In this document: piece after piece, positions 4,520 to 59,118 of the stretch
Layout: each line of letters opens with the position of its first letter
Numbering within the stretch: the stretch's first letter is position 1
NCBI RefSeq assembly: GCF_963675165.1
Contig: NC_087380.1
Location: forward strand, 1,913,803-1,977,802
Origin: Halichondria panicea
Taxonomy: Eukaryota > Porifera > Demospongiae > Suberitida > Halichondriidae
DNA length: 64,000 nucleotides
Reading direction: 5' to 3'
The notes under the pieces: model-generated
Database searches by the model: none
The model's input: the letters and a program-made list of their open reading frames with translations, nothing else
What the model was told of the DNA's origin: nothing
Made by a program: the position numbers and the translations under genes

Positions 4520-5095
4520 TCTCTCCTATGGAGAGATGGTTCTCGATACATGCTCACTGATAATTAATGGGACCTTCCTGGTTCGATCCAGCGCTGCCTT
4601 AATTGTCACACACACACACCATCGACTGTGTAAGTATAGGGAAAAGTGGTTCATACATGTTACTGTAGCTGTAATGTCTGTCTTCATAGAGGCTAGCAAC
4701 ATGGCCATTACAAGTCAACTCTCTGTATACTTGTCAATAGCCCTAAATTGGTACAGTACAATGCTGCATGCATACTGTTTTCAAAGCAACCATTTGACGC
4801 CAATAGCTTATTGTGTACATGCATACAAAGTCTTAAATGCATTAGATTATATATTTGGGTAACTATAACTTATTTACATTGGTCATTCTCCCATGCAGAG
4901 ATGGAGGCAGATTCAAGAGGATCCCGTGTACAGAGACCCTGCTGGGGGGTACGGATTTGCATCACCATTATAATTTGACTCTCTGCTCAGTTTAGCTTTG
5001 TATTATGCCACCAGCACAATGGAGAAACACAACCCTGAACTGGAGGACAATGCTTAGATACCCTGCATTCCATGTGGACAGGGGTCATTGCTGTA
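4520..5095 (+). pseudogene. Split SH2 relic 1 (FLVR exon and p85-like C-terminal exon), upstream of gene B
   Basis: About 4,524-4,629 encodes RWFS and NGTFLVRSS, the latter being the phosphotyrosine-binding FLVR signature of SH2 domains, before a GTAAGTAT donor. An insertion between the two puts them in different frames. The second exon starts after CCATGCAG at 4,899 and encodes DGGRFKRI and GGYGFASP. It lost one base in the ATCCCCGTG stretch and has a TAA where other copies have TTCGAA. The same two-exon arrangement is repeated between other receptors in the array. The family is SH2, with the C-terminal half closest to p85 regulatory subunits as I remember them. This copy cannot be translated intact. 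Confidence 0.7.
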
Positions 5096-5233
5096 CAATA
5101 TTGTGCTGTATATGTATATGTGGGTGCATGTACACTTTGATGTGTGGAAGTTAATTTATTGTAATGATAATTTCAGACTTCCTGTTGTCATCACTATATT
5201 AAATTCTGGAATCAACTAATTTGGAGTATATGC

Positions 5234-8200
5234 ATGCATGAAGACAGCATGAAGAAGTTACAAGGTGGCTGTGTCTCTTGGCTGGTCCTTTTGACTGGAG
5301 CTGCTCAGCTCCTACTAGTGTGTGGAGAGGGTATGTTTTACTTATGCATGACCTCTGCCAGCAATATTCACTACTGGATTCCTTCCACAATCTCTCTTCC
5401 AGTTGTATGCCCATCTCTTCCTGCCCTGAACAATGGAATAGTCTCATACAACAACTTAATACTGGGTCTGAACACTGTGGCCACCTACACCTGTGACACT
5501 GGCTATACTATCTCTGTAGACAGTCACACTACCAGGACTTGTGAGAGGGATGGAGTGTGGAGTGGGTTACCTCCATCTTGTGAGCGTAAGTGGAATGGAT
5601 TTTGTACTGTTTGTGTACGTGTTTCAATTTCCATACTGTGATAGCACCCTGTTCTGACCTTCCTCTCATCACAAATGGAGACATTGTCTACACTGATGGA
5701 TTCTCTGACTACAGACCTATCAACTCTCTTTAGCTTTCTACAGCTGCAATCCTGACTACACTCTCACTGGAGGGAGCTTGTTCAGGATATGTATGAGTGG
5801 AGGGAGCTGGGATGGGTCAACTGTAACTTGTCAAGGTGAGTTTTATATATCCCTTAATGTTACTATTATAAACGGTACTAATTTTAGTGAATTTTAGCGA
5901 ATTTGTAGTAACGCTAAATTAAGTCCGCTAAAAACGCATTTATGAATATCATAAAAATAAAAATAAAAATGTTCTGTGTTTTTAAGGGTATGCTAAGCAA
6001 GCTATAGCCCTTCTGTATCTGATCCAAACTCAACCTTATACTTACAAGACCCATAAAAACATTATAATTGCTAGGATTGGCCAGAGGAAACACCAAAAGT
6101 GTAGAAAACAAGAAAGCGGGCGAGAGCATAAGTCCAATCCGTTACAACGTCATTCATATGTATGTAAAATTTGTTGGTGGTAGTTTTTATTATACCATGC
6201 TTAACTCATTGCTGGTATATATAGGTGGTGTTCTCTTTCCTACATGTATATACATCCGGCTAGAAAAACATTTGCAATATGAAATATTGCTAGGATTGGC
6301 CAGGGGAACCACCAAAAGCATGGTAACAAGAAATCAGACGAGATTCTATTACAACGTCATTCACATGTACTTTTTTCGCTGGTAGTTTTCCATGTTTGTC
6401 CCAGCCAATCCAAGCAATTTTACTGGTGGGATGATGACCGATCCGTATATATACATCCATTTTGGAATGTGCGGGTATATAATCATGATGATTTGCGATG
6501 AATTGATATTCCTAATACATGCAGTGTTGAGCACAGGTATACACAGTCCATCCATGCGTAGTGACATGCATGGAATGATGTGGTGGATTGAAGCTGGTAG
6601 ATGGATCTGGCAGTCATATACATGTTCATGACGTTGTAACGGATTGGAGTTATGCTCTCGTCTGAGTTCTTGTTTCCACGCTTTTTGGTGGTTCCCCCAG
6701 CCAATCTTAGCAATTTTTCACATATTGCAAATGTTTTTCTAGTCGGATTTTCCCATTCAGTACAGAAGTATAAATTTACGTATCATGACATGTATAAGTG
6801 GAACGTCACAAGAAGCAGTACAGAAGCTCAAGAAGAGAAAACAGAGTAATATTGCTCTAACTGATTAAATTTGTGAGTCAGTATTAAATGACAGCCATTT
6901 TCTGTGCAGTATTTCAAGAGCATGGAGGCCTATGCAGGGGCATAGCCAGGGGGGTGCTAGGGGTGCTCAAGCACCCCCAACCAGCCTGAGTCAAGTATAC
7001 AAATCACGTGCAGAGAAATGTATCTGATTATCCAGCTGAGCACCCCTTCTCTTCCAGATCTTGCTGCAGTTAGGCTGTTAGCTAGCTAGTATAGCAAGGA
7101 AAACGATTCAGTCTCTAAACTGTGAGCTATTCTGTATAAAAAGGTGTGGCTTCCGGTCAAGCACATTTCGGCCCTCTTTCGTCTATGATATCACCCCTTT
7201 CTCCAAAATCCTGGCTATGCCCCTGCTATGCCTATGATATCTTTATTTAGCCAGTTCATATAGCATATCTGTCAGAGAAAGGGAGCTAGAGCTGAACGTG
7301 TGAAGAAAAACACCACCTCTGGAAAAGCACTGCACTCAGATTTTCAAAAGGCGCACGGTTTCTTAGCAACGCCTAACTCTGTGCAGAATGTCCTGGATGT
7401 GGCTGTATACTTGGAATTAAAAAATGCTCCCCAAGAAACTTAGATCTACTAGTCAGTCAGACAAAGAGCAATGAAACGTTGGAACAGTGCAATTTTCAAA
7501 ATGACAATATTCATTCATTAAAATGCTTTTATACACAGTCAGCTCATGATGAACATTAATTTTTGCATGCAAACTCAAAGAATGGGTAATGATAGACCAT
7601 TATTGTTGTTGTTAAAACGATTGATGCCAAAAGTTCAAGTCTAAAATTAATGGCATCAGCAGAGCCTTTTAATTGCAGCTCTCTTCTCACTCTTGCAGCT
7701 ACCAATAGCTAGCGTTCTAGTGCAGAGCTAACTACTAAGTAGAGTAGCAACACTCGGTAAAGAAGTTTGGCTACGTGCTCTTCTGAAAAGGCTGCAATGC
7801 AATGCATTCCAAGTAAGCAAAACTAGGCATAACTCGAGAACGAAGCATTGTTTTGCAAATCCACAAACTAAAATCCAAGAAAACATGACTTGAAGCCTAT
7901 AGAAACTCTTGCTTGCACTTCATTGATCCTTGAGCAGCTATAGCAGTCTACACACACACACAAACACACTACCGTATACCTCGCTTGCGCATGCGCACCG
8001 AGGCATAACTATCTGTTCAGCCAGTTTCTTGAGAAGGCCTTTCCCTGCAGAGATAGAACAGTTTAAACTTTGAACATGAGTCAAAATATGTGAATTGTTG
8101 CTAACACAGGCAAACCCACTGCCAATCCGATGTAAAACCACAGATAGAGTATAGAGAGGGATTGGAAACAGAGGTACCCTCGAAGTACCATCCGTGTATC

Positions 8201-17200: not shown

Positions 17201-19524
17201 ACCATCTTGTATAGGTGAGAGAATACCATCCGCCCATCCGGTACCATGTACTGTAATTATATGCTTATACAAATTACAGCAATCACCTGCTCTGCTCTTC
17301 CTGCTATTCAACATGGGATGATTGTCTACTCCCGTGGCGGCACAACTGACTATGGAACAACAGCTACGTATCAATGCAACTATGGATATAGTATAGCGAG
17401 TGGAGACAGTGAGAGGACCTGTACTGGTGATGATAGGAGCACAGTGGGAGAGTGGAATGGTGCTGCTCCTCAATGTTCACGTATGTTCTACTATTGCAAT
17501 TGGTCGCACTGTGTCACATGATAATATACACACACAGCTGTGGACTGTGGGACTCCTCCGTCTATTATCAATGGATCTCATAGGACACCAACAACCTCAA
17601 CATTCACAGGGACAGTGACCTACAACTGTAATGATGGCTATGCACTCTTTGGGATTGCTACAAGTACTTGTCAGGCAAATGCAACCTGGAGCAGACCACC
17701 AGAATGCAGAGGTACATGTGTAGTGTGCACATTCATAAAAATGTGTTATACAGGTACAAAACAATATAATTTATGCCGCTGACTAATAAGCTCTATGGAA
17801 TATAATTATTGTGGTTCTCAGTTAATTAATTAACGTTTCTCTACATGCAGTCTCTTTAGTGATTGTACATAATTATTACAGCCACTGTAACTGCACTGGC
17901 CTGTACTGATCTGATGGATCTAGTCAATGGAAGTATTGTTTACACTATGAAGAGCATTGACAACATACCAGTGAGCACTGTGGCCACCTACACCTGTGAC
18001 CCTGGCTACACTCTCAATGGAGGTACCACCAGGACTTGTGGGAGTGGAGAGAGATGGAGTGGATCGGATCCAACGTGTAAAGGTTGGTGGCAATACGTTT
18101 ACAATCGTGTCACTGTGTTGAGCAAACAAATTAACAGTTGTTTTCTCCTATATATATATACAGTCATTATGTGTCCTCCTCTACCGACCATTACCAATGG
18201 CACCATCTCCTACTCTCCTGATGTCACCTCTGACTATGACCTGGGAACTATAGCAACCTACACTTGTGAGGCTGGGTTCTATCTTGAGGGTAATGAGGTA
18301 CGAGTGTGTATGGATGATGATGGAATGGACGTCATTGGATTGTGGAGTGGTCAGGAGCCAAGTTGTGTCTGTACGTTTTGTGTGTGTTTTGCAAGAGAAA
18401 ATTTACCACTATAATTATCGTATGTTAGTTATAGTACGTACTGTCACTATCTCCCTATAGTCATCATACGTAAATACTTAACATGGTCAGCCAGAAAAAT
18501 TATTCATGAGCTGTTTGCCACTGTTTCCCCAGTCATCCATCCTCCTGTACACTCAGTTTTGTTCCAGCTCAGACTCACCAACATCAACAACTGTCCTGAC
18601 TGGGTCGTGAGTGCAATGCTGCTTATATATTTTAACGTTACCCGAAGAAAATGTAATATTGCTCTCTGTACATGCAGGACCAGAATGGGAGGATTGAAGC
18701 TGTGATGAGTTCGTTTGCTACCGAGGTGGAGAGTCACTGTGGGTGTGGTTTCTCAAGCACGGTCATTACTGCCCCTCTCTTCCGCTGCTTCCCTGGGTCG
18801 GAAAGAGTTGTCACATTCCGAGCCACTCTAACCAATTCCAAGCTTCTCACGCCCATACAGGACTGGATACAAACCGATGGATTCATTCCCATTCAGAATG
18901 TACTGATTGAGGTGGACAAGTCTTGTCCTGTGCAGATATCGAGCCTTGCAGACACAGAGTGCACCAATCAGCCTACAGCTGCAGGGAGCAGTGACATAGC
19001 CACTGTGGTTGGTGGAGTGGTCGGGGTGGTCCTTGTGGTCGGTTTTGTTGTTGTAGTAATTGCTGTACTGTTGTTTAAGAGCAGGAGAGAGAAGCTAACT
19101 GTCCACAGAACCAGAAAGTGCGTTTATTAATCATGCTCATTATGTCTGCTACAGTTTAACTGAATTATTGTCTCCCCCCCCTAGAAATGAAGTAACACCA
19201 GTGTCGCTAAAGGGTGTGGTCAGTACTGGTGAGATACAACCATACGAGATGATGGAAATGGGTCACGAATACGAGGAAGTGTCCAAGTTCCAACAAGCCG
19301 TCGATGGAGAGTATGAGATCATTGGAGCACCCTCACAGACAACTGGCTCCGAGGGCAAGGCTCCTATAAAGACTGAGTTATCACCACCCACTCCACAACC
19401 CACTCCACCCACACCACAACCCTCACAAGCAACTAAGCCTGCCGGAAATGATATTGAGTTTACAGAGTGCGTTGCCTACAGCACGACCACCCACATTCGC
19501 CCCCCACAGTCCACAAGTTTATGA
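5234..19524 (+). CDS. Gene B: long sushi/EGF/Ig-like receptor with transmembrane segment and YEMM/YEEV/YEII tail; two exons disabled
   Basis: The exons I read are: signal peptide 5234-5330 (MKKLQGG start, hydrophobic [15 protein letters not shown]); sushi 5403-5585; dead sushi 5645-5835; sushi 12770-12946; dead sushi 12991-13200; EGF 13321-13437; calcium-binding EGF 13522-13647; sushi 13701-13907, 13955-14140, 15608-15784, 15841-16038, 16096-16272, 16346-16555; Ig-like 16613-16954 with paired CC and WLFPNG; sushi 17008-17214, 17280-17480, 17538-17711, 17882-18082, 18164-18370; membrane-proximal domain 18533-18606 and 18678-19117, which also holds the membrane helix; tail 19185-19524. If the two dead exons are skipped the frame stays open for 1,346 codons, because nearly all exons are phase 1-1. 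Role inferred: cell-surface recognition receptor signalling through tail tyrosines. It could instead be two broken pieces, as a 7-kb block of mobile elements separates its start from the rest. Confidence 0.6.
5645..5835 (+). pseudogene. Disabled sushi exon of gene B (in-frame TAG)
   Basis: Splice sites look normal (ATAG acceptor, CAAG|GTGAG donor), but the exon is 191 bases, not a multiple of three, and reads into TAG at 5731-5733. Homologous exons read AACACTGTAGCTTTC at this place. Skipping it keeps the frame. Confidence 0.7.
6935..7225. mobile_element. 291-bp TIR element, CAGGGGCATAGCC ends (hAT-like)
   Basis: It begins CAGGGGCATAGCCAGG and ends CCTGGCTATGCCCCTG, a perfect inverted terminal repeat of 16 bases. 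CCTATG lies just before it and CTATGCCTATG just after, a possible target duplication. The termini resemble those of many hAT-superfamily non-autonomous elements; this assignment is by end sequence only. Confidence 0.7.
7230..7545. repeat. Interspersed repeat copy 1
   Basis: The segment with AGAGAAAGGGAGCTAGAGCT and, further on, AGTCAGTCAGACAAAGAGC recurs at about 40,915-41,350, and its second part at about 33,040-33,140. Those copies carry an ACTT tetranucleotide run just before the AGTCAGTCAGAC motif. No coding potential seen. Confidence 0.5.
7966..9995. repeat. Inverted repeat pair about 2 kb apart
   Basis: Bases 7,966-8,010 (ACCGTATACCTCGCTTGCGC) are approximately the reverse complement of 9,951-9,995 (GTGAGGTATACGGTATAG). 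They may be the ends of one element; the right arm lies outside the 6,045-9,815 cluster, so the nesting order is unclear. Confidence 0.45.
8408..9152. mobile_element. TIR element of about 745 bp, GGATTGGAAACG ends
   Basis: The ends are inverted: AAAAGGAAGGGATTGGAAAC at 8,408 and TCCAATCCCCTTCCTTTTC near 9,150. GTGAAACACTCCGCGTTAT just inside the left end mirrors ATAACGCGGAGTGTTTCAC at the right. A diverged copy lies in opposite orientation at about 43,110-43,855. No transposase frame is intact. Confidence 0.65.
9993..10040. repeat. GT-rich microsatellite
   Basis: Imperfect GT/GTTT dinucleotide run, directly before the LINE fragment begins. Confidence 0.8.
10045..12620 (+). mobile_element. 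Decayed non-LTR retrotransposon (CR1/L2/Jockey-like LINE), reverse transcriptase region
   Basis: A reading frame with typical non-LTR reverse transcriptase blocks: CPIPKKGD and NFRPISLLP (11,025-11,100), [13 protein letters not shown] (11,269-11,310), [13 protein letters not shown] (11,440-11,480), the catalytic FADDTK (11,535-11,552) and the downstream [12 protein letters not shown] (11,980-12,015). The frame is broken by TGA at 11,329-11,331 and 11,854-11,856 and by a foldback insertion at 10,284-10,823. The 3' end has a TAA-rich microsatellite near 12,570-12,590, as in L2/CR1-type elements that lack poly(A). The endonuclease half is missing, so the copy is 5'-truncated. It lies in the long intron of gene B, same strand, and is not expected to move. 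Confidence 0.85.
10284..10823. mobile_element. Near-perfect foldback element inserted into the LINE
   Basis: Two arms of about 200 bases (10,284-10,490 and 10,610-10,823) are almost exact reverse complements, from CTCAGGTATATTAAGGACTG on the left to CAGTCCTTAATATACCTGAG on the right, around a short spacer. It splits the reverse transcriptase frame between the blocks ending SPTYQLL and beginning SSISIEESE. The high arm identity suggests a recent insertion. Confidence 0.8.
12991..13200 (+). pseudogene. Disabled sushi exon of gene B (nonsense codon)
   Basis: Splice sites and length (210 bases) are normal, but codon TAA lies at 13083-13085 where paralogous exons in gene D have TAC. A single C-to-A change explains it. 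Skipping this phase 1-1 exon would keep the gene open. Confidence 0.75.
14688..15595. mobile_element. Composite TIR element in gene B intron, CAGTGGCG ends
   Basis: It begins CAGTGGCGTGTAC and ends AAATGCCACTG. A run with GAGCACCCCC near the left end mirrors AAGCACCCCCC at the right. Inside is a foldback (about 15,050-15,345): CCTATGTCAGGATTTGTCTT against AAGACAAATCCTGACATAGG. CAGTGGCG ends also occur at 30,626-30,992. Confidence 0.6.
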
Positions 19525-20159
19525 GCACTGAAATACCCCCCTGGCCCTGTCCTGGCCCTGTATGCAAATTGACTGTAAAACTGTGACGCATAATTTTATC
19601 CTTATAGATTTGCACATTAGTTTGTGATCTTTTTAATATATGTGGTGTGGATTCTCGTTAAATCATGTACTCCAGGCTACAACAGAGTAGCAATTTAATA
19701 GTTCTTAAGATGACCTTTCCCCTAGGTAAACACTGAAGCTGTTTCATTACCCTACTAGAAGACAAAGTGTACAGAGACTAAGACCACCTCTGATCTGAGA
19801 TAGAACGACCCTTGGAGAGTGGGAGGGGCCAGACCAGAGACCACTACTATTCCACCAATAGGAGAATAAGTAGTTGCCTCATTTCTGAGTCATCCTATTA
19901 CCAAGAATTATGTGCACGTATAATTATTGCATTTTATTTTGCATGGCAATATCATTAAAATAGTTGTGGATTCTCTCGAGGTCATGCCGCGGAGGAATGT
20001 GTTACCTTATAGAGGGTTATTTTCGAGGCACTACATTTTTTATTTTGAATGACCACACCCCTACAGTAGAGAGGTATTTGTTTTGGTGCATTGACACGGA
20101 TGCATGTATGTATCAGATTATGTGATTTTTGATCACTTTCCTCTTATTTCCCTGTGCAG
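19525..20159. other. Gene B to gene C spacer, duplicated at 41.6-42.4 kb
   Basis: No gene seen. From about 19,910 the sequence (for example GTCATGCCGCGGAGGA and the segment around 20,030-20,150) recurs at 41,660-42,420. That second copy is interrupted by about 520 bases after GTAGAGAGGT. Confidence 0.6.
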
Positions 20160-20350
20160 AGATGAAGGCAGGTTCAAGAGGATCCCCGTGTACAGAGACC
20201 CTGCTGGGAGGTACGGATTTGCATCACCATTCGAATTTGGCTCAGTTTAGTTCTGTACTATGCCACCAACACGATAGAGAAACACAACCCTGAACTGGAG
20301 ACAATGCTTAGATACCCTGCATTCCATGTGGATATAGGGACCATTAGTAA
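20160..20350 (+). pseudogene. p85-like SH2 C-terminal exon relic 2, upstream of gene C
   Basis: After a CCTGTGCAG acceptor it encodes GRFKRIPVYRDPAG and RYGFASPFEFG. An 8-base deletion then shifts the frame into TAG within TCAGTTTAG. Downstream codons for KHNPELETMLRYPAFH remain readable in another frame. The copy at 42,423 has the same deletion, so the two share descent. No FLVR exon is recognisable just upstream. Confidence 0.7.
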
Positions 20351-20511
20351 CTGAACTAGCAGCTGTACAGTATTGTATGTGTATTCATTTTCTGTGTACG
20401 TGGGTGGATGTACACTCATGCAGTTTTGATGTGTGGAAATTTCAATTCAAATTCCTGTTGTCATCATTTATAATAAAGTCAACAAAACCAATGAATGCAT
20501 GTGCATGCATG

Positions 20512-23500
20512 CATGAAGATAACATGAAGAAGTTAGGTGATTGTGTATATCTTGGTTGGTATTTGACTGGAGCTGCTCAGCTCCTACTAGTGTGTGGACA
20601 AAGTTCACCTGCAGCTGGTATGTTTACTTTCATGACCTCTGCCAGCTCTAGCATGCATAGTGTAATAAATGTTAATTGGATGCATGCAGAAGTGTACTTA
20701 TCTCATGGATCAAACAACATCACCACTAACAACACTGAGATCCCCATCACTGATATTGGAGAGGATGCTGTGGGTGGTCTGCCCTCTCTCATCTGTCAGA
20801 CTGACCTCACCGCCTGCTGTAGAAGTCACGCTGAGAACAATGGTAATGGAGGACTGGGACAGTGGGGACGTATCCTGATGGGAGTGTGATACTGAACAAT
20901 GCTGGGTCAATGGCTGCTGGACATCAGTTCTACATTGTGAGGAATGCTCCACAACTCATCAGACTGGCTCGTAGACAGTCTAACAATCCCCTGAGTCCAA
21001 CCGGGTCCTACTGCTGTACCATACCAACTACTGGAGGAGAAATGACCCTCTGTGCCAATATTAACCTGGGTGAGTGAGCTAGTACAGCTATAGTACATGC
21101 AGTGCATGCATGATGGATACATGTGCATATGCGACAATATGTATAATATACAGTAATAATTATTTTTCTGGTGAAAAACAAAATTACCTTTTGCCATCTA
21201 ACTATTGCGTTCTGCCAAGGATTGTATATATTTACCAGTATACAAATTTAGGTTTTGCTATTTTATTGTTGCGAATTGATCACCTTTCGCGTATGGTATA
21301 ATATATAGTGATAAATGCATGCATACAGTTGTGGACTGTGGCCCGCCTCCCACTATTTTCAATGGATCTCCTGGGACACGAACCAGCACAACATTTGGAG
21401 GGACAGTGTCTTACACATGCAACGATAGATACCGTATGTCAGGATCAGCCACTGTAACTTGTGAGGCTAGTGGGAGTTGGAGCACAAAACCAACTTGCTC
21501 AGGTCTGTGAAACATAATTGTGGTGCCGTATAGTGGGAAATTTTCGCGGGTGAACGTTTTTGCCATATGACTCAAGAGCCCTCAGAATAAATTTTCGCAG
21601 TTTTCGTTTCAATGCCAAAAAATCATCAATCCCCCATATACAAACATTGCACAGAGACACTATTTTGAAAACTTCCTTTTGGGATTGTGTGAAAGTAATT
21701 TGCTATCTTGAAAGTATTGAGTTTAAACTTCCTTTTTAGACTATGTGGAAGTAAAAACTTTAGATTCACCTTTTTAAAGCCAACACCCATGCATCAATAA
21801 AAATATTCGTGTGTGGGCCTAGTTTTGTGTTAGTTTTGTGTTAGCTAATTGTGTTAGCTAATGGTAGGGTCGTTTTTAGCTGCGATGGAGTGTGGGGATC
21901 GGATCCAACGTGTGAAGGTTGGAGGCAATACGTTTACAGTCATGCACTCTGTGTTGAGCAATATTAATATTTCAAGTGTATTAATCTCTTACAGCCATTG
22001 AGTGTCCTCCTCTCTACCGGCCATTATCAATGGTACTATGATCTCCTACTCTCCTGATATCACCCCTGACTATGACCTGGGAACTAATGCAACCTACACT
22101 TGTGATGCTGGGTTCTATCTTGAGGGTAATGAGGTACGAGTGTGTATGGGTGATGATGGAATGGACACCATTGGAGTGTGGAGTGGTCAGGAGCCAAGCT
22201 GTGTCCGTAAGTTTAGCAATTGTAGTGTGTGTTTTGCTACAGAACATTTGCCACTATGTTAGTTTACTGTAATGGCATACGTATAGTACTGTGCACCTAG
22301 ATCTCTGATTGTTTATTGGCAAGACCTATATTCATGAACTGTATCATTTCCCCAGTCACCCCTCCTCCTGTACGTCCAATGTTGTTCCAACTCAGACTCA
22401 CCAACATCAACAACTGTCCTGACTGGGTGGTGAGTGCCAAGAATGTCCTAAAGCTAAAGCAAACTAACAATTACTTCTCTCTCTACAGGACCAGGATGGG
22501 AGGTTAGAAACTGTAACGAATGCGTTTGCTGCCGAGGTAGAGAGTCACTGTGGGTGTGGTTTCTCAAGCATGGTCATGACTGCTCCCCACTTCCGCTGCT
22601 TCCCTGGGTCGGACAGAACTGTCACATTCCGAGCCACTCTAACCGATTCCAAGCTCCTCACTCCCATACAAGACTGGATACAAACCAATGGATTCATTCC
22701 CATTCAGAATATACTGATTAAGGTGGACAGTCTTGTCAGGTGCAGATATCGAGCCTTGCAGATACAGAGTGCACCACCAACCAGCCTGTAGCTGCAGCGA
22801 TCATTGACCTAGCCACTGTGGTTGGTGGAGTGGTGGGAGGAGCGGTGGGGTTGATCCTTCTGGTGGGCGTTGTTGTCATAGTGATTGCTGTACTGTTGTT
22901 GAAGAGTAGGAGACAGAAGATTATCGTCCACAGAACAACAAAGTGGGTGAATCAATAATTTTACTAGAGCATTGAAGTGCAAACCCTCGGCGGTAATTTG
23001 TGATTTGATGTAGTCTACAGCCTCGAATCAAAGCCGTGTGTACATACATGTACATAGGCCGCATGCAGCTTACTCGCTTTTATGAAAACGAAACATCAAA
23101 ACATAGCTAGCCAACTTTACCTTGTAAAAACAGTGCTATCTGAGTATACACACAACGACAGACAGACTGACTGACCGACTATATACTATAAAACCCGTGG
23201 CGCCGCGGCGCACCTCGGGTTAATTTTGTATCTCTGAATTTGTACAAATTAACTATATCTACATTTCCCCTCCCCAGACATGACCTACCACCAGTGTCGC
23301 TAAAGGGTGTGGTCAGTACTGGTGAGATACAATCATATGAGATAATGGAAATGGGTCACGAATACGAGGAAGTGTCCAAGTTCCAACGAGCCGTTGGTGG
23401 AACACTACCCTTACATACAACTGGCTCCGAAAGCAAGTATGTTATAAAACTGAGCCATCACCACCCACTCCACCCACTCCACCCACACCACAACCCTCAC

Positions 23501-23608
23501 AAGCGACTAAGCTTACTGGAAATGATACTGAGTTTACAGAGTGTGTTGCTTACAGCAGTGCACGACCACCCACAGTCGCCCCCCACATCCCACCAGCTTA
23601 TGAACTAA
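20512..23608 (+). pseudogene. Gene C: type-1 sushi receptor, multiply frameshifted
   Basis: Exons: signal peptide 20512-20617 (MKKLGD start, GQSSPAAG end), Ig-like 20690-21069, sushi 21329-21502, remnant of a sushi exon end at about 21,886-21,917, sushi 21995-22206, membrane-proximal 22356-22429 and 22489-22942 with the membrane helix (VVGGVVGGAVG), tail from 23278. Damage: an extra base near 20,866 in the Ig exon (the frame for WGRYPDGS shifts), two extra bases in CCTCCTCTCTACC near 22,013, one missing base at about 22,729 before the cysteine SCQ codons, and one missing base in the tail near 23,446. Tail tyrosines YEIM and YEEV precede the last break. It is paralogous to gene F and, at the 3' end, gene A. 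Several independent breaks make assembly error unlikely as the whole explanation. Confidence 0.75.
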
Positions 23609-25088: not shown

Positions 25089-25323
25089 TAACTGAACTAG
25101 CAGCTGTACAGTATTAATTGTATGCATGTACTCTTTCTGTGTATAATATTATGTGGTGCATATGGGACTTATTGTGGCATGCACTTTTGATATGAATTTA
25201 CTTCCTGTTGTCATCACCAATTCATTTGGAGGCATGTTTAATCAAAGATATAGGAAGGGAAGTACGTTAGTGATAACATGAGTGATTATTCTGAAGTCTT
25301 CCCTCCTATATCTCTGGTTTAAT

Positions 25324-42872: not shown

Positions 42873-42908
42873 GTATGTTTACTTTCATGACCTCTGCCAG
42901 CTCTAGCA

Positions 42909-48910: not shown

Positions 48911-50564
48911 AAAGATAACAGACCAGTGAACACTGTGGCCACCTACACCTGTGACACTGGCTACACTCTCAATGGAGTCAGTACCAGGACTTGTGGGAGT
49001 GATGGAGTGTGGAGTGGATCAGATCCAACGTGTGAAGGTTGGTAGCAATACATTTACAGTCATGCACTCTGTGTTGAGCAATATTAATATTTCGAGTATT
49101 ATAACAAGTTGTTTTCACTTGGGTGTATACAGCCATTGAGTGTCCTCCTCTACCGACCATTACCAACGGTATGATCTCCTACTTTCCTGATGTCACCCCT
49201 GACTATGACCTGGGAACTAATGCAACCATCACTTGTGAGGCTGGGTTCTATCTTGAGGGTAATGAGGCACGAGTGTGTATGGATGATAATGGAATGGACA
49301 CAATTGGAGTGTGGAGTGGTCAGAAGCCAAGCTGTGTCCGTAAGTTTAGCAATTGTAGTGTGTGTTTTGTGTTTTGCTACAGAACATTTGCCACTATGTT
49401 AGTTTACTGTAATGCATACGTATAGTACTGTCACCTAGATCTCTGATTGTTTATTGGCAAGACCTATTCATGAACTGTATCATTTCCCCAGTCGCCCCTC
49501 CTCCTGTACGTCCAGTGTTGTTCCAACTCAGACTCACCAATATCAACAACTGTCCTGACTGGGTGGTGAGTGCTAAGAATGTCCTAAAGCTAAAGCAAAC
49601 TAATGATTTACTTCTCTCTCTACAGGACCAGGATGGGAAGTTAGAAACTGTAACGAATGCGTTTGCTGCCGAGGTAGAGAGTCACTGTGGGTGTGGTTTC
49701 TCAAGCATGGTCATGACTGCTCCCCGCTTCCGCTGCTTCCCTGGGTCGGACAGAACTCTCACATTCCGAGCCACTCTAACCGATTCCAAGCTCCTCACTC
49801 CCATACAAGACTGGATACAAACCAATGGATTCATTCCCATTCAGAATATACTGATTGAGGTGGACAAGTCTTGTCAGGTGCAGATATCTACAGCCTCGAA
49901 TCAAAGCCGTGTGTACATACTGTTACATGTACATAGGCCACATGCAGCTTACTCGCTTTTATTCGAAAACGAAACATAAAAAAATAGCTAGCCAACTTTA
50001 CCTTGTTGTGTTGGGATAAAAACAGTGCTATCTGAGTATACACAGAACGACAGACAGACTGACTGACCGACTATATACTATAAAACCCGTGGCTGGCGCC
50101 GCGGCACACCTCTGGTTAATTATGTATCTCTCTACTGTTCTGAATTTGTACAAACTACATTTCCCCTCCCCAGACATGACCTACCACCAGTGTCGCTAAA
50201 GGGTGTGGTCAGTACTGGTGAGATACAATCATACGAGATAATGGAAATGGGTCACGAATACGAGGAAGTGTCCAAGTTCCAACGAGCCGTTGGTGGAACA
50301 CTACCCTTATATACAACTGGCTCCGAAAGCAAGTATGTTATAAAAACTGAGTCACCACCACCCACTCCACCAACACCACCCACACCACAACCCTTACAAG
50401 CGTTTAAGGCTACCGGAAATGATACTGAGTTTACAGAGTGCGTTGCTTACAGCAGTGCACGACCACCCACAGTCGCCCCCCACATCCCACCAGCTTATGA
50501 ACTAATACCTATAACCCCCTGTATGCTACTGTTGACTATTTGCATATTGTATAATCTTGTCTAA

Positions 50565-52229
50565 TGTTTTTGCTTGCATGCATTTCATTTCATTTTGCAT
50601 GGCATTGTCGTCAATTTTACGCATCCTTGCTATTTGGACTCCACCCAACAACTGTGGATTATCATGCCATGCCGTTGAAGTGGTTGTTATTAGCCGCTAA
50701 AAACTCATAGCCTCAATCTACTTCAAGTCATATTTTATCTAGTATTTGAAAAGCCTTTCTGGTGATAAAAAGTAAATGTGTGGCGTGGTGTCAGAGGAAG
50801 ATAGTCATTGTCAATTAAAATTTGCTTCCGGAGAACTTCAAAATTGCATTTCGATCGTCTACTCTTTCTTTGTTACCTCCAACCACAGTAAAGTTTACTA
50901 GGGGGAGGTACTAAAAAAAGATTAGATGATAGGAATGCAATTAAAATGTCCTCCGGTATCCTCCTAGGCCTGGCGTGGTGGGTGGTGGTCATCTAGCCAG
51001 CTGATTTGAGAGAGGACGACCCTCGGAGAGTGGGAGGGGAAAAACCAGATACCACTATATATATGTACCGCTACTACCCACTGGTATAGGTAAAACTCAC
51101 AGCAAAAGTGACGGCTCGCGAGTACGAGTACAAATCTAACAGGTAGGATCATTGAGAATGTATAATAATATGAAACTGTGTCCCTCCTAGGGATCTTTGG
51201 AGTGTGCATTGTAATATGAGTTTTATACCACATGACTATTAGAAAACACAATAATTATTATATAGCACATACTAGATCTACAAGCTTACACTGCCCTTTC
51301 GGATGAACCCGGCCAAAGTTTGTATAGCCGACTATGCACTCAAGAGTTGACTCACGATAAGTATGTTTGGGCCAAAACAAACTTATCGTGAGTCAACTCT
51401 TGAGTGTAGTCGGCTATAAATACTGAGTATTCCTGTCAGCCCAACTTCTACCCCATTAGGCCAGTGTTCGTCAATGTCTTGTTTCTGGTTTGGAAATCAC
51501 CTTACCACTAGTGAGGGAGGGAGGTTATCATTATTCATTATTGTGACATCACTTCCTGTAAAACCCCATTTCCTGTTAATTAAAATAACCACACTGGATA
51601 TACAATAAAACCACAAATATGAAAAAGGAAAATCTTACCTAATCTTAGCCTCGGTCCCAGGCCGATTTTTTTTTAATAGAACAAAGTTGAAAAATACGTA
51701 GGCGACCTAGCGTTCAATTGGAGACGGATCGGCCTGGGATCGAGGCTAACCTAATCTATGCTGCAATCTATGCTATTTATCATGTGACACACCCACAAGT
51801 AGGTGTGGCTAATGAAAATAATGGAGTGATGTCATAATAATGAGTTTTTTGATGAGGCAGTGAAATTTGAGGAGGGAGGTAACCAGAAACAAGACATTGA
51901 TTAACACATTGGCCTTACTACCAATACATGTACTATTCTTAGGGCAGGTGCCCACATTGGTTTACCATTCCAACCACTGTAGACATACAGCTGTTTACTT
52001 AGTGTGCATGTGTGTGCTTGCTTTCAATCTGATAGGCTCAGTGTTAGTGAGTTGTTGTGTTGTCCTGAGGCAAGCACCTTTCAATAGCCTAGGGCTGTGA
52101 TAGTTTAGGAACTCTAGCAAATGGTGCATGTTGCCTTTGATTGTCAATCTGTGTGAAATACCTTAGTACTGAGTGATGTTATCATTGTACAATCATGATG
52201 CAAATCATAAGTATTAACCCACCCCCCAC
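50565..52229. other. 3' flank of gene F with palindromic insertions
   Basis: The first part duplicates the gene A and C flanks. A near-perfect hairpin lies at 51,331-51,418, with ACTCAAGAGTTGACTCACGA mirrored by TCGTGAGTCAACTCTTGAGT. A TIR pair, TGTCTTGTTTCTGGTT (51,476) and AACCAGAAACAAGACA (51,881), encloses a smaller pair with GCCTCG(G/A)TCCCAGGCCGAT-like ends (51,650-51,749). No gene seen. Confidence 0.6.
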
Positions 52230-52767
52230 CTCAGGAAAGATAGTTCTCGAGACATGCTCACAACGGGACCTTCCTGGTTTGACCCAGCGTTGCCTATTGC
52301 CACACACACACCATTGACTGTGTAAGTATATAGGTTCATGCATGTAGCTGTATATAGTGTCTGCATGTCTTCATACACGTAGAGGCTAGCAACGTGCAAG
52401 TGCAGATAGCCCTAAATTGGTACTGTACAATGCTGACTGTATACTGTTTTCAACCCTGCCATTTGACGTCAATAGCTTATTGTGTACATGCATACAAAGT
52501 CTTGCATTATGAAGATTATTATAATTATTTGGGTGACTATAATTATTTACATTGGTCATTCCCCCATGCAGAGATGGAGGCAGGTTCAAGAGGATCCCCG
52601 TGTACAGAGACCCTGCTGGGGGGTACGGATTTGCATCACCATTCGAATTTGACTCTCTGCTCAGTTTAGTTCTGTACTATTCCACCAACACGATGGAGAA
52701 ACACAACCCTGAACTGGAGACAATGCTTAGATACCCTGCATTCCATGTGGACAGGGGCCGGAACTAG
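52230..52767 (+). pseudogene. Split SH2 copy 6, upstream of gene G; C-terminal exon intact
   Basis: The FLVR exon (about 52,236-52,322) is dead: the TGG of RWFS is TAG, and the FLVR arginine codon is TGA. The second exon, 52572-52767, is fully open: DGGRFKRIPVYRDPAG, GGYGFASPFEFDSLLSLVLYY, EKHNPELETMLRYPAF and a stop TAG at 52765-52767. Similarity: the GYGF.SP...DSL..LV..Y..N....HN..L...L.YP pattern matches the C-terminal half of p85 SH2 domains, which read GYGFAEP and LNVTLAYP in the corresponding places. To join the FLVR exon in SH2 frame, the second AG of CAGAG must be the acceptor. Two explanations remain: a terminal exon still in use, or a slowly decaying relic. Confidence 0.7.
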
Positions 52768-52905
52768 CAGCTGTACAGTATTGTATGTGTATTATATATA
52801 CACTTTTGATGTGTGGAAATTCATTGCAATGATAATTTCAGACTTCCTGTTGTCACTGATCACTATTAAATTGGAGTACATGTAGGCATGCATGCATGAA
52901 GAAGC

Positions 52906-55900
52906 ATGAAGAAGTTACAAGGTGACTGTGTCTCTTGGCTGGTCCTTTTGACTGGAGCTGCTCAGCTCTTACTAGTGTGTGGAGAGGGTATGTTTTACTT
53001 GTGCATGACCTCTGCTAGCAAGATTGACTATTGGATTCCATACAATCTCTTCCATACTGAGGTAGCAATCTGTTCTGACCTCACTCTCACCAATGGAAAC
53101 ATTTTCTACACTGCTGGATCCCCTGACAACAGATCTCTCTATTCTGGAGCTACCTACACGTGCAATCCTGGCTACACTCTCATTGGAGAGAGCACCACCA
53201 GGACTTGTGTGAGTGGAGGGATCTGGAGTGGGTCACCTCCAACTTGTCATAGTAAGTTCTATATAATTGTTAGATACTGTTTTTTGGAGGTGTTTAGGGG
53301 TTAGAAGCCCAAAGGCACTGATTTAATATCCCAAGCGGTAGCGATGGGTATAATTATATAGAGTAAGTAACCCATTTTCGCCAGACACCTATAATCGGCG
53401 GCTATTGCACGAAGCACAAGACCATTTTGCACAAAACTTAACTACATGGACCTACAGATGGGTAAGAAAGTAACAGCTCCCAAAAATTTGGAAAGAATAA
53501 CTTGCTTGCGGACGGAATGGTGGTCATGAGAAGTGAGCTGCCGAATGTATCGATTAGGCCACTCCAAATGAGACTGTAGTTTCCCGTCAGAGACTCTAGT
53601 AAATTATATGCGGGTGTGAGCATAATGAACTCATTATAAATGTGTTGCGTCATGAATGGCTGCATTAGCAGAGCCTTGCAGCTCTCTTCTCATTCTTGCA
53701 GCTACCAATAGCTAGCATTCGAGTGATGGTAGCACTCCTAGTGGTCTGTGGGGTCAATGTCAACGTATGTTCTGTAGTTGCACATGCATCCATGTCACAT
53801 GATTGCATGCAAATATATACAGCTGTGGACTGTAGCACTCCTCCATCTATTACCAATGGATCTCCTGGGATACCAAGGAACACAACATTCACAGGGACAG
53901 TGACCTACAGCTGTAATGATGGCTATGCACTCTTTGGGATGGCTACAAGTACTTGTCAAGCAAGTGCAACCTGGAGCAGACCACCAGAATGCAGAGGTAC
54001 GTGTGCATATTCATCATTGGGTACATAACATGCATGCACCATACTCTAACACAGGTGTCCACATTGGTGGTATCCAATCTGGTGTGCCCATCTTAATTGG
54101 AGGTTCTGTTACTATCAGCTGCACCACTGATTCTCCTGCTGACTCAATAATGTTGCTCCAAGATGACCAACCTCTTCATGAAGCTCAACAGTCATCAACC
54201 ACCACCTTGATGTATACTAGTTCTTTTGTGTCTGACAGCATTCATCGAAACACTTTCAAATGTGAAGCACTGCTAACAGAGAGAACATATTCTTCAGATA
54301 CTGCCTTTGATATGGTTACCATTTCCATAGAATGTAAGTAATACAGCATATGTATGTGTATGGACTTAATTTCCCCACAGTTCCCCAACAACCTATTACC
54401 GCTATCATTAGAACATCTAGCCCATCAATTCCACAAGTTGGAGAGCCGTACAGTCGAATTTGCACTGTGTCTAAATTTCCTGGACTAGCTCACACACCAA
54501 CTGCACAATGGCTCAAGATTTCCACGGGGACTGAAAGAATCGGCATGCCCACTCCTAATGAAGCTGCTCTTGAGTTCTTTCCACTGAGAACCTCAGATGC
54601 TGGTAGATACCGTTGTCAGGGAAACCTCAATACTACTGTTCGCTCTCAACCTCTTTTAAACAGTAGCGATTTCGATTTAATTTCTCAAAGTAAGTCAATC
54701 TTTGTAGGCTATATGAATATTGTATTGCACTCATGTTTTTACAGTACCAGCACCAACAGTGATAATCACAAGGTCTCCCTCTGATTTATTTTTGTTTGCT
54801 AACCTCAGTGTGGTAACATTTACATGTCAAGTGTCCATACATACAAGCATCGATACTCCTGTCAATCTGAGCTTGACTTGGACTCGTGAGGTTTATAGTG
54901 ATGAAGATGATACAACCACTGAAGTGATCATGGTGAATAGTACAACCAAAGTAATCGAGAGAAGATGGACCTTTAATGATTTAAGTTCAAAAGACCAGAG
55001 AGTGACTTGCAATGGAACAATTAGTTCAGCTATCAGTTTTATTCGAGGCAATAGCAGTACGGCTGATGACATGTTATCTGTTGCTGGTGAGTTGCCATCT
55101 TCATAACCTATGATAATTGAAGTGAACACTTTCTATTTCAGGTGTGTTTCTTGTGTTCAACAACAGTGTACTGGACAATACTACCTCTGTACTAGCGAGG
55201 GACTTACGTGTCATACAGTGTCACTCTGACAAGACAGATACATTCAATGAAGACCAACACGGATGGACTTTTCCTAATAGCACCAAGATTACCAACATCA
55301 GCACACTGGCTGTTGCAACACGGGAAGGAGGACACCTGGCACTCACTCGAGTGGGAAACAGTTCCTTGCCAGCTGGAGAGTATTGTTGCAAGGCTCAGGA
55401 CGCCAGGGAAACCAGCCACACCCTCTGTGTGCATGTGGAGCCAGGTGAGGGTGAAGGTAGATGTTATGTCATCTAATCTGTAGTGCAGCTAGTAGCCATC
55501 TAATTGCTCTGGGAATTAATGTGAGCTGGCACATGTGTAACCAACTCCTAGATGTAACTAACTATAGCGATGACTACTTCTAGTTACATAGCCCTAGCTA
55601 TACGCTCTATTTACTATCCACAGAACCAAGTCCCAGTGGCAGTGTCATGATTGGAGGGATAGCTGCTGCGATTGTAATTTTGGTGGTTGCTCTACTGATC
55701 ATCATTGGAGCAGTTATTCTCATTGTTGTCAGGTAAGTAAACATTGTAAACTAAGTCCTTTCTCTGGGAACCAGTCACACCCTCTGTGTGCATGTGGAGC
55801 AAAGTCGCTCAGTGTTGTTAAGGGCCCGATTGGTCGGTAGAGTGGTAGGAGGAGTGGTCATTGTCCTTATCCTTGGGGTTGTTGTCATAGTGATAGCTAA

Positions 55901-56315
55901 TTTTGTGTTTAAGAGCAGAAGAGAGAAGCTTACTATCAACAAAACAACAAAATAAATAGATGAATGTTTTATATGTTTATATTGCTGAATTCTGATACAC
56001 TTTCCTCTCTCCCCCAGATGTAACGTACCACCAGGGTCGCTAAAGGGTGTGGTCAGTACTGGTGAGATACACACATACGAGATGATTGAAATGGGTCACG
56101 AATACGAGGAAGTGTCCAAGTTCCAACGAGCCGTTGGTGGAGAGTATGAGATCATTGGAGCACCCTCACAGACAACTGGCTCCAAGAGTAAGGCTGTTAT
56201 AAAGACTGAGCCAATACCACCCACTCCACCACAACCTTCACAAGCAACTGGAAATGATATTGAGTTTACAGAGTGCGTTGCTTACATCACGACCACCCAC
56301 AGTCGTCCCCCATAG
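52906..56315 (+). CDS. Gene G: receptor with two sushi and four Ig-like domains, new transmembrane exon and YEMI/YEEV/YEII tail
   Basis: Exons: signal 52906-52987; sushi 53066-53251 and 53823-53996; Ig-like 54055-54333, 54381-54689 (SDAGRYRCQG, the classic Ig Y-x-C), 54745-55086 (VTFTCQV, SLTWTRE), 55142-55444 (GWTFPNS, GEYCCKAQ); transmembrane 55624-55732 (GGIAAAIVILVVALLIIIGA); tail 56018-56315. The lengths sum to 2,082 bases: 693 codons plus stop, with every phase matching. The membrane exon replaces the usual SEA-like plus Gly/Val helix exon of the array; it is phase 1 in and phase 2 out, so the standard tail still joins. The tail has TYEMI, EYEEV and EYEIIGAP. No internal stop, so probably functional. 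Role inferred: Ig/sushi recognition receptor. Confidence 0.85.
55624..55732 (+). CDS. Alternative transmembrane exon of gene G
   Basis: Encodes EPSPSGSVMIGGIAAAIV, then a hydrophobic run of about 23 residues ending ILIVVR. It is not similar in sequence to the [10 protein letters not shown] helix of the other receptors and has no paralogue elsewhere in the window. Confidence 0.85.
55769..55955 (+). pseudogene. Decayed ancestral Ig-end/transmembrane exon of gene G
   Basis: Reads TLCVHVEQS(R)SVLL directly into GRVVGGVVIVLILGVVVIV and [10 protein letters not shown], then AACAAAATAAATAG. The array's usual donor AAA|GTGAGT has become AAATAAA, giving a stop. An internal deletion joined the Ig end (compare gene I 63,340-63,380) to the helix. 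It lies downstream of the replacement exon and is skipped in the reading given for gene G. Confidence 0.75.
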
Positions 56316-57399
56316 CCCACAGGCTTATGAACAAATACAGCCGTTGATGTTGACTGCTTACATATTATATGTGTACCTGTACATAATTTGTGCATATATT
56401 CGTGAAAACTCTGATAACGAGTGCAAGCGTTTTGCTTTGCTCATGTGTTAGCTATAACTATTATTACTTCTTGCTTTGTATATTTATTGTGTTTGCAATT
56501 GTTGACATGAACCCACACAGTCAATATCATAATTATAGAAGAGGAGTTTAGTTGAAACAGATGATGCGAATTATCTTCAAAGATAGATCTATACTGAGTA
56601 GACTCTCGCTCTTCCGGCTTTCTGAACTGCCAACATGAGTCAACCTATTAGTTCTGCTGATAACACACTACAAACCAGCTGATATATAGCCATTACCCAG
56701 AATACCACCTCCGAACAGCGTTGAATGCGACCTATATGCTCTACCGGCTCGGCTCGTATACACTAAAGGTATTTGTCACTCTCATTACTGTACATGTCAT
56801 TCTCTATATTAAACATTTACCCCATGGGGGGTCTCGGAATATATTTTTGATTTTAGTTCATCATGTGTCCGTTAGTTCATGTTCGAAGATCTTTGGTCTG
56901 CATTTGCATTTATGGCATCACCAGTTCTTCGTGAATATGAATATGACGAGGTTTCCTCATTGTACTATGTTTAGTAGCCATTCCCACCACGTGTGTATAT
57001 CGACACATTGGTATCATGAGACGATAGCTTTGACATTCAGTTGTGTGCTTAGAGGGAGTGGCGTGTGCTTGCTTTCAATACGATATAGAGTGCTTTAGTG
57101 TTTATTGTGAGCATTACTCGTTGTGTTACCCTGAGCATAGATAACAGAGACTGCTCTATTATCTACGCCCTGAGGCAGTGATTACCACCTCTTATAGAGG
57201 CCTTGTGATAGCTTAACAGCAAATGGTGCATGTTTTGCCTTTGCTCCAATATCAATCTGTGTTTGATATAATAGATCTAGAGATCTACTAACATGCAGAT
57301 CTATAGTGCCATGCATCTAACTTAAGACTATACTATAGTGCAGCAATCATGTACTTTGTTTTGAAGTCATGATTGTAATTATAACGAACCACCCCCCCC
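56316..57399. other. 3' flank of gene G
   Basis: No gene seen. 56,880-57,250 parallels the gene D flank (33,830-34,180). Confidence 0.5.
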
Positions 57400-57746
57400 A
57401 GAGATGGTTCTCAAGACATGCTCTGGTAAACCCAACAGGACCTTCCTGGTTTGACCCAGGATAATGTGGAGGAGTTTTCCACCTTGCCTTGTCACACACC
57501 ATTGTAAGTAAGGTTAGTTCATTGCTGTCTGTCATGTCTATCTCTTATCCCCCATGCAGAGACGGAGGCAGATTCAAGAGGATTTTAGTGAACAGAGATC
57601 CTGCTGGGGGGTACGGATTTGCATCACCATTCGACTTTGACTCTCTGCTCAGTTTAGTTCTGTACTATGCCACCAAGGAGAAACACAACCCTGAACTGGA
57701 GACAATGCTTAGATACCCTGCATTCCTTGTGGACAGAGGCCGTTAG
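57400..57746 (+). pseudogene. Split SH2 copy 7, upstream of gene H; C-terminal exon intact
   Basis: The FLVR exon (about 57,402-57,503) keeps RWFSRHA, but its FLVR arginine is a TGA and the frame between is altered. The C-terminal exon 57560-57746 is open: DGGRFKRILVNRDPAG, GGYGFASPFDFDSLLSLV, KEKHNPELETMLRYPAF, LVDRGR and stop. It has in-frame changes only (three codons fewer than copy 6), which is weak evidence for past or present coding constraint. Confidence 0.7.
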
Positions 57747-57900
57747 TAACTGAACTAGCAGCTGTACAGTATTGTATATGTCACTGTGTATGTGTAGGAT
57801 TCTCTTTCTGTGTATGTGGTGCATGTATATACACGTTTGATGTGTGGACAATTCAGACTTCCTGTGATTTGGAGCGTGCATGAATGCATGAAGACACAGC

Positions 57901-58800
57901 ATGAAGAAGTTACAAGATTACTGTGTCTCATCTTGGCTGGTCTTTTTGGCTGGAGGTTTTCAGCTCCTAGTAGCCTGGGTTTGTGTAGACAGTATGTTTA
58001 ACAGTTTCTTTTGTAACCTCTCCAACCACTAAGTATAAATGCTAGAGTCTCGTAAGCCAACCTGTGTCCGTAAGTATTTTATTTATACCATAGCAATAAA
58101 ATTATCTGTTACAAAGCAATTGTACAGGCTGTCTGTCAATGGTAGGTTTCGGAAGTAAATGAAATTTTGAGGATAATTTGGTACATTGGCAGTCTATCAC
58201 AAGTGTGCTTACAGTGAGAGTCGAACGTGTATCTTTGTTAATGGTGGAGAGACAATCGGGAGATTCAATGGAAGTGAACCAACTTGTGATCGTGAGTTGA
58301 TTGACTGCTATAATAAATTATTAATAAGCGTATTGTCCACAGGTATCACATGCTCTGCTCTCCCTGATGTTACGAATGGGACCATTGACTATACTCTAGT
58401 GAGATAACTGCACCATATGACTATGTAACAACGGCTACTTATCAATGCAAGGATGGGTATAGTCTAGCAAGTGGAGACAGAGTGAGGACCTGTACTGGTG
58501 ATGGTAGGAGCACAGTGGGAGAGTGGGATGGTGCTACTCCTCGATGTCCATGTTCGATTTATTATTGCAATTGGTCGTATCACATGACTTATACCACATG
58601 ATAGCTGTGGACTGTGAGATTCCTCCGCCTATTACCAATGGATCTCCTGGGATACCAACAACCACAACATTCACAGGGACAGTGACCTACAGCTGTAATG
58701 ATGGCTATGTACTTTTGGGGATTGCTACAAGTACTTGTCAGGCAAATGCAACCTGGAGCAGACCACCAGAATGTAGCACCATCGACATCGTGTAAGTGTT
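57901..58800 (+). pseudogene. Gene H: short sushi gene remnant
   Basis: Signal-like exon 57901-57991 (MKKLQDYC, then LVFLAGGFQLLVAW); half sushi exon 58193-58291; sushi exon 58343-58551 with two extra bases and in-frame stops; sushi exon 58605 onward, which lacks its usual donor (GCAGAG|GTAC). Its end runs into ACCATCGACATCGT|GTAAG, which looks like the end of an SH2 FLVR exon. No membrane or tail exon follows. Probably a leftover of a receptor deleted between the last sushi exon and the SH2 region. Confidence 0.65.
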
Positions 58801-58924
58801 ACCATGTAAATGTATACAGGCTAAATTGACTGTACACTGCTTTGAAACTAACGATTTACTTGAATTCTAAACGAATTATGCATCTGATTTTCGATCACTC
58901 TTTCCCTATTATCCCCCTATGCAG

Positions 58925-59118
58925 AGATGGAGGAAGGTTTAAGAGGATCCCTGTGTACAGAGACCTTGTTGGGGGGTACGAATTTGCATCACCATTCGAA
59001 TTTGACTCTCTGCTCAGTTTTTAGTTCTGTACTATGCCACCAACACGATGGAGAAACACAACCCTGAACTGGAGACAATGCTTAGATACCCTGCATTCCA
59101 TGTGGACAGGGGCCGTTA
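58925..59118 (+). pseudogene. p85-like SH2 C-terminal exon copy 8, upstream of gene I
   Basis: Reads DGGRFKRIPVYRDLVG and YEFASPFEFDSLLS; then an extra T in CAGTTTTTAG shifts the frame to a stop. The remaining KHNPELETMLRYPAFH codons and GGCCGTTAG (to 59,118) are intact in another frame. The preceding gene H exon is in compatible phase with its start. Confidence 0.7.

Follow-up and report, generated by a model that had tools for sequence, protein, structure and literature searches.

SH2-encoding pieces in a receptor array of the sponge Halichondria panicea: probable passenger relics of a neighbouring PI3K p85 gene

The genome of the sponge Halichondria panicea (131 Mb) contains on contig NC_087380.1 (C4) a stretch in which incomplete SH2 domain pieces, resembling those of p85, the regulatory subunit of phosphoinositide 3-kinase (PI3K), alternate with receptor genes. 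This stretch of 64,000 nucleotides (C4:1913803-1977802) is referred to as the window, and features within it are given in window positions. A preliminary description of the window noted that the receptor tails carry YEIM or YEMM, the pYxxM class bound by p85 SH2 domains, which implied that a receptor and the reader domain for its own tail sit in one amplified unit. As possible origins of the pieces it offered an alternative 3' end of an ancestral receptor, a PI3K-regulatory gene swept into the array, or a decoy adaptor. The locus therefore raises the question of where the SH2 pieces come from and whether they act as protein at all. In this study, we argue with a probability of about 0.8 that the SH2 pieces of the array stem from the 3' half of a PIK3R-like p85 gene and were spread as passengers by tandem duplication.

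A genome search for an intact parent, as proposed in the preliminary description, led to a p85 gene annotated by NCBI that heads the array. The modelled part of this gene, p85-1, spans C4:1872410-1879050 on the plus strand in 11 spliced exons with GT-AG borders and ends 35 kb upstream of the window. The donor of exon 7 was set by hand to CCG/GTAGGA, since the donor chosen by the script breaks the frame; this gives the NCBI protein sequence, and the hand-joined model of 542 aa is 100% identical over its whole length to NCBI P0001 (666 aa, "regulatory subunit gamma-like"). It carries two SH2 domains (Pfam E 1.8e-22) and an iSH2 (E 1.7e-18), so that the nSH2, iSH2 and cSH2 by which we recognise a p85 stand in one protein. 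Genome-wide, iSH2 scored above the cut-off only at a second p85 gene, p85-2, and weakly at p85-1. The cSH2 of p85-1 is divided between exon 10 (1878473-1878592), encoding the half with the FLVR motif, and exon 11 (1878858-1879050), encoding the C-terminal half. The spliced parental cSH2 is recognised as SH2 by Pfam (E 7e-7), with p85-alpha chains as its best PDB relatives (E 1.8e-23), but the C-terminal half alone gave no Pfam match in either of two pieces; the profile search suggested earlier thus succeeds for the parental domain only. The first receptor of the array, NCBI P0124 (658 aa, three Sushi matches), lies on the same strand as p85-1, with its start codon at 1879204, 153 bp past the p85-1 stop codon.

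From this parent the last exon has multiplied extensively. A query taken from the window piece at 57,560 gave 46 matches in the genome (best beyond its own place E 1e-30), 45 of them on the plus strand at C4:1.873-2.296 Mb, one of these being the parental nSH2, and the 46th at C4:3.67 Mb. Merging of split matches left 35 places including the parent, plus the parental nSH2 and the place at 3.67 Mb. A probe of 83 nt, taken from the terminal part of exon 11, detected 36 places. In the union of both searches the last exon of p85-1 is present at 38 places, parent included (37 further copies), of which 36 form a plus-strand array of 0.45 Mb at C4:1.879-2.323 Mb and two lie inverted at 2.59-2.60 Mb. 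The receptors themselves belong to a large family: a query covering the SEA domain and transmembrane stretch (SEA-TM) returned 133 matches, mostly on C4 and C5. Two nearly identical units 63 kb apart, at C4:2232758 and 2295441 (L025, L026; 0/217 differences in the exon 11 block), represent a recent segmental copy.

The order within units was followed over a contiguous 161 kb (C4:1846001-2007000), and the exon-by-exon comparison of p85 covered 201 kb. Remnants of p85 exons 6-11 precede the receptor signal exons in parental order and orientation, with an extra exon 10 at 1987891 as the sole exception in order. The exon 11 block lies 105-328 bp upstream of 14 of the 16 receptor starts; the pieces had been placed between consecutive receptors, which is correct, and more exactly they stand just upstream of receptor starts. 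The two starts lacking the block, 1910860 and 1950248, are preceded by an exon 10 relic. Behind three starts (1950248, 1971689 and 1995803), neither a SEA-TM exon nor a tail exon was matched ahead of the following p85 relic. Exons 1-5 of p85 were found in the parent only, with no copy in the 201 kb compared. These are the features of a partial duplicate carried as a passenger: an intact parent adjoins the array, only the end facing the receptor has been copied, and introns are kept and in part alignable. A processed retrocopy was considered and rejected, as no spliced exon 10-exon 11 junction exists in the genome at up to 3 mismatches. The idea of a PI3K-regulatory gene swept into the array consequently holds for the 3' half, given that only exons 6-11 were found copied and an intact p85 heads the array, but not for the whole gene. 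An alternative 3' end of an ancestral receptor is not supported: the exons derive from a neighbouring gene, they lie upstream of the receptor starts, no open exon 11 among the copies read adjoins an intact exon 10, and their recent changes are neutral (see below).

A course of events compatible with this arrangement can be proposed. The first tandem duplication would have broken in p85 intron 5, because exon 6 is the farthest 5' part copied, and later duplications and unequal exchanges would have trimmed the p85 part. A working receptor copy would have had to bring the p85 tail along, since the receptor promoter presumably must lie within or beside that tail. Exchange among units may also have kept the last exon uniform, together with the adjoining 35 nt of 3' untranslated region (UTR).

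Reading frames and substitution patterns bear on whether the copies work as protein. Among 28 non-parent exon 11 copies whose frame status was read, 8 are open, and not one of the 8 adjoins an exon 10 that is intact in the FLVR frame. We require of a functional SH2 domain that an undamaged FLVR exon stand next to a C-terminal exon with an open frame, and this is seen in 0 of 28. As the preliminary description had stated, the FLVR exons of the window are all damaged (4531, 24603, 35967, 52235 and 57400, each with stops or frameshifts in the FLVR frame) and the pieces at 52,572 and 57,560 have open frames. The FLVR arginine codon has become TGA in three window pieces (36007, 52271 and 57443). 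It is established for SH2 domains that a half lacking this arginine fails to bind phosphotyrosine. In a further copy, L017, exon 10 is open with glutamine replacing the FLVR arginine, and exon 11 is interrupted by an insert.

The counts that bear on selection come from an alignment of 29 of the 38 places, the parent among them, in which the 5' ends of three truncated copies were masked; the omega ranges reflect kappa. Private changes, confined to one copy or a near-identical pair, amount to N=59 and S=22 (omega 0.93-1.07) and give no sign of purifying selection; older shared changes amount to N=17 and S=16 (omega 0.37-0.42, p 0.004-0.012). The dN/dS comparison asked for earlier hence gives neutrality for the recent changes and constraint for the older ones. 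Protein selection has shaped the older exon 11 variants and not the recent ones, as is expected of sequence derived from, or converted by, a working p85. Because recent changes are neutral and most frames are broken, the SH2 halves encoded in the main array probably have no protein role now. This makes it extremely improbable that the pieces are free decoy or dominant-negative SH2 adaptors, even though 8 of 28 copies read open: none of them stands beside an intact FLVR exon, exon 9, with which the cSH2 starts, has no match in the window, and no such gene model was returned among proteins of about 366-1165 aa, shorter ones lying outside that range.

The units of the window illustrate this decay. 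p85 relics and receptor exons were located by blastn with the exons of the parent p85 and of the first array receptor, and all of them lie on the plus strand. The seven C-terminal pieces known before were all recovered within 1 base, at 84.8-96.5% identity to the parent. For exons 1-6, 8 and 9 of p85, the search of the window gave no match at E 1e-4, so that the window pieces do not combine nSH2, iSH2 and cSH2. Three of the FLVR relics appear half-length by their blastn ends, but are full-length with 23-35 gapped positions when the whole piece is aligned.

The first receptor of the window starts upstream of it and contributes a tail exon with YEIM (1267..1574). It is followed by an exon 10 relic (4531..4631; 89.7% by blastn over the first 58 nt, 23 gapped positions, a stop in the FLVR frame, arginine codon CGA at 4575), an exon 11 relic with -1/+1 frameshifts (4899..5089, L024, 93.2%) and a signal-peptide exon (5237..5326, 84.4% to the first exon of the first array receptor). 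A decayed reverse transcriptase of retrotransposon type lies at 10825-12444 (RVT_1 E 3e-13 for 10825-11331), its frame running through two stops. The next tail exon carries YEMM (19196..19516) and precedes an exon 7 relic which the preliminary description had not listed (19781..19862, 82.4%), an exon 11 relic with 35 nt of 3'UTR and a broken frame (20160..20382, L035, 92.6%) and a signal-peptide exon (20512..20602). A tail exon with YEIM, whose second-half frame is unlike that of other tails (23288..23593), is succeeded by an exon 10 relic (24603..24688; 80% over the first 60 nt, 25 gapped positions, a stop in the FLVR frame), a broken exon 11 relic (24912..25115, L036, 84.8%) and a signal-peptide exon (25327..25416). 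Downstream, the stretch 28363-28797 is repeated in tandem about 955 bp further on, at 29318-29752; the 144-aa frames of the two copies are identical, so that the duplication must be very recent.

The tail exon at 33388..33697 carries YEMI, which is not YxxM. The exon 10 relic behind it (35967..36080, 86.4%) is frameshifted, with TGA for arginine at 36007, and no exon 11 relic intervenes before the signal-peptide exon at 36446..36535. The stretch 38377-39273 encodes a cysteine-rich piece of ephrin-receptor type (Pfam E 1e-5) together with an fn3 domain (E 1e-8). An exon 11 relic with 3'UTR, broken as a split match with stops (42423..42643, 94.3%), stands before the signal-peptide exon at 42769..42857. 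The following tail exon, again with YEIM (50184..50490), precedes a second newly found exon 7 relic (50982..51058, 79.2%), an exon 10 relic (52235..52323; 78.3% over the first 60 nt, 35 gapped positions, TGA at 52271), the open exon 11 relic L011, from which a small deletion has removed the parental stop codon (52572..52790, 94.7%), and a signal-peptide exon (52895..52983). Behind a further YEMI tail, likewise not YxxM (56028..56321), are found an exon 10 relic with a stop in the FLVR frame and TGA at 57443 (57400..57499, 87.4%), the open exon 11 relic L009 with an in-frame deletion of 2 residues (57560..57781, 91.7%) and a signal-peptide exon matched over the first 81 of 100 nt (57887..57966, 78.3%). 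The last relic, exon 11 with 3'UTR and a broken frame (58925..59154, L037, 96.5%), precedes the signal-peptide exon at 59482..59557; directly after its 3'UTR, at 59160-59292, lies an inverted-repeat stretch that by eye resembles a miniature inverted-repeat transposable element.

A similar process has left its traces at the second p85 gene. p85-2 lies on the minus strand at C4:1809-1813 kb, some 60 kb from p85-1 and head to head with it, and the two share 53% identity in the nSH2 and 36% in the C-terminal exon. The last two exons of p85-2 have been copied at least four times on the minus strand, at 1803900, 1793238, 1766363 and 1759895, and among these copies lie minus-strand SEA-TM receptor exons at 1794978, 1775610, 1768084 and 1739840, with 32-36% identity to the query from the main array. 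The four copies read differ by 2.6-3.4% in exon 10 and 0.6-1.7% in exon 11, and on the 5' side the similarity stops at the exon 10 acceptor. At 1759895 the arginine codon reads TGA in the alignment, and two other copies have indels in both exons. Receptor clusters have thus taken up p85 tails at both loci, each cluster bearing copies of its own p85. Two more last exons of p85-2 type, a more diverged pair (67% and 63%) in which one exon contains a stop, were noticed at C4:3671792-3673937 and may be a gene or a relic.

Several observations count against the view of the pieces as mere passengers. Two copies in the main array narrowly miss a complete cSH2 half pair: L030 (C4:2058524) has an intact exon 10 flanked by AG and GTAAGT beside an exon 11 with a +2 shift, and L019 (C4:2029237) combines an exon 11 that is open, though with two in-frame deletions, with an exon 10 containing a single stop. 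At p85-2, one of the four copies read (1803900) is open in both last exons behind its own AG acceptor, with the arginine kept and exon 9 outside the similarity. Finally, the gene model of NCBI protein P0121 (599 aa) links a tail exon (1897595-1897807), through a scrap of exon 10 and an open copy of exon 11 (1898834-1899022), to the ectodomain of the receptor that follows. The last two findings would be expected if receptor transcripts spliced into the exon copies to give receptor-SH2 proteins, or ran through into the next receptor. We regard this as very improbable. P0121 begins in the middle of a tail, it would place half an SH2 domain between a cytoplasmic tail and an ectodomain, and no signal peptide or transmembrane stretch is seen in it by eye; it is likely a run-on gene prediction across two receptor units. 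Of 4 proteins returned within the search range of about 366-1165 aa, only P0121 and p85 are named H. panicea, and recent changes in the main array are neutral. Open frames among the p85-2 copies are hardly informative on function, given how young these copies are.

A further difficulty is how little the p85-derived exons have diverged. Measured by anchored extension against the parent, 17 exon 11 copies show 4.1% substitutions, less than neutral passengers should show, whereas other parts of the unit differ by 12.9% (signal exon, n=18), 8.1% (tail, 12) and 11.8% (SEA-TM, 9), and the flanks of exon 11 by 24% (upstream intron) and 12.4% (downstream DNA). Exon 6 copies (n=8) differ by 1.6-4.4% while their flanks differ by 12-37%, mostly in short alignments and with one flank not alignable; the FLVR exon copies are more decayed. 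Such values would be explained if the p85 last-exon DNA now served as receptor promoter or transcript leader and were kept for its nucleotides, not for protein, a role that is compatible with a passenger origin. We consider this reading unlikely. In its favour, exon 11 shows the lowest divergence among four parts of the unit that were compared, and the low divergence crosses the stop into the UTR: over the 38 nt of stop and UTR, 22 of 1043 cells depart from the consensus (2.1%), compared with 5.6% and 2.6% in the coding parts. Moreover, the block stands 105-328 bp upstream of nearly all receptor starts in the 161 kb, and the p85-2 copies likewise retain the p85 tail and 3'UTR. A narrower version, in which the receptors would use exon 11 as a spliced 5'UTR exon, had been suggested by low divergence that seemed to run from the acceptor to GTATGT; it found no support in the annotated P0124 and was absorbed into the promoter or leader reading.

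Comparison of the exon 11 block with its flanks between pairs of copies helps to separate a steady constraint from homogenisation. Of 325 pairs, 39 were usable, their upstream flanks being alignable over 120 bp or more; these pairs are not independent of one another, and those of the young class were picked by their upstream flank. Where this flank is least diverged (6 pairs), the block differs at 36/1279 positions (2.8%), almost as much as the upstream flank (33/928, 3.6%), though less than the downstream flank (56/827). In 12 pairs with an upstream flank at 13.9%, the block stands at 5.4%, and in 21 older pairs it is still at 236/4342 (5.4%) as against 706/2476 (28.5%) in the upstream flank. 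The divergence of the p85-derived exons thus reaches a plateau near 5-6%. This plateau likely reflects conversion among copies, since steady constraint would lower the young pairs too. Gene conversion, as suggested by these divergence values, would explain why exons carried as passengers have remained so alike. Two further facts speak against a promoter or leader role, namely that the receptor starts 1910860 and 1950248 do without the block and that exon 6, which in the parent lies >3.5 kb further upstream, is equally little diverged. As the cause of the scraps' likeness, conversion is likely and a promoter or leader role possible. In its broadest form, the latter would make the p85 last exon and proximal 3'UTR a portable receptor promoter or leader, kept alike by conversion or selection while the frame decays, and arisen at both p85 genes. 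We hold this to be unlikely; if true, receptor arrays and the PI3K adaptor gene would share a regulatory seam.

The passenger reading also changes how the match between tails and SH2 domains is to be understood. Among the six tails that are complete in the window, four were confirmed to contain YEIM or YEMM, and two carry YEMI. In the p85-linked array as a whole, 13 of about 25 tails were read, and the first tyrosine motif is YxxM in 8 of these 13. An unlinked sister tail family at C4:122-234 kb (L060-L065, L067), with one member at 848 kb (L066), has no p85 pieces at its loci by SH2 search or block search; its first motif is YEMI or YEII in 8/8 and YxxM in 0/8 (Fisher p=0.007, paralogues not being independent samples). 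This difference could suggest that the linkage was selected, the array having gained p85-binding tails because it lies beside p85. Such selection seems very improbable to us: besides the non-independence of paralogues, either motif may be ancestral, roughly half of the array tails enter the count, M and I codons are one base apart, and p85 can probably work in trans, where linkage is not needed. The intact p85 protein is likely the reader of the pYxxM tails, in trans. The pairing of each receptor tail with its own reader domain, as it had been implied for the unit, is hence not upheld, as 5 of 13 array tails lack YxxM and the intact p85 protein can probably act in trans.

If the pieces are passengers, their spread shows how an array may grow in a compact sponge genome: where the edge of the unit falls inside a neighbouring gene, scraps of a signalling domain are spread without protein function. 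These p85 scraps can mislead gene prediction, of which P0121 is likely a case. Furthermore, recurrence at two p85 genes together with the low divergence of broken exons provides a natural test between retention as promoter DNA and homogenisation by conversion.

We recognised no paper describing p85 fragments in receptor arrays in the open PMC subset. Several known systems resemble parts of the locus. Sushi repeats occur in immune-type receptors of the same species: according to PMC8242945, Sushi is a partner domain of H. panicea SRCR receptors and also appears among the genes responsive to lipopolysaccharide, and the main text mentions neither SH2 nor PI3K. Like members of the PIK3R family, the parent has the order nSH2-iSH2-cSH2 and ends in the cSH2 as p85-alpha does; the copies differ in lacking nSH2, iSH2 and a complete cSH2. 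The copies resemble the partial gene duplicates treated in PMC3449122 in that they arose at the DNA level, are truncated to a portion of a gene and retain introns, and differ from them in that no new function was found for the sponge p85 parts. The closest likeness is the human RCCX module (STK19-C4-CYP21-TNX, in which C4 is a gene and not our contig), as described in PMC8362596. There, STK19B is a fragment of 914 bases from the 3' end of the gene upstream and lies before the duplicated C4. In both systems an immune gene was duplicated while its upstream neighbour was retained by its 3' end only, and unequal exchange and conversion follow, although for the sponge the latter two are suggested by divergence patterns. 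The sponge array differs in scale, with about 37 copies where RCCX has one to three segments; its copies are much more diverged and include up to six exons, and p85 tails were also taken up at a second, paralogous p85 gene.

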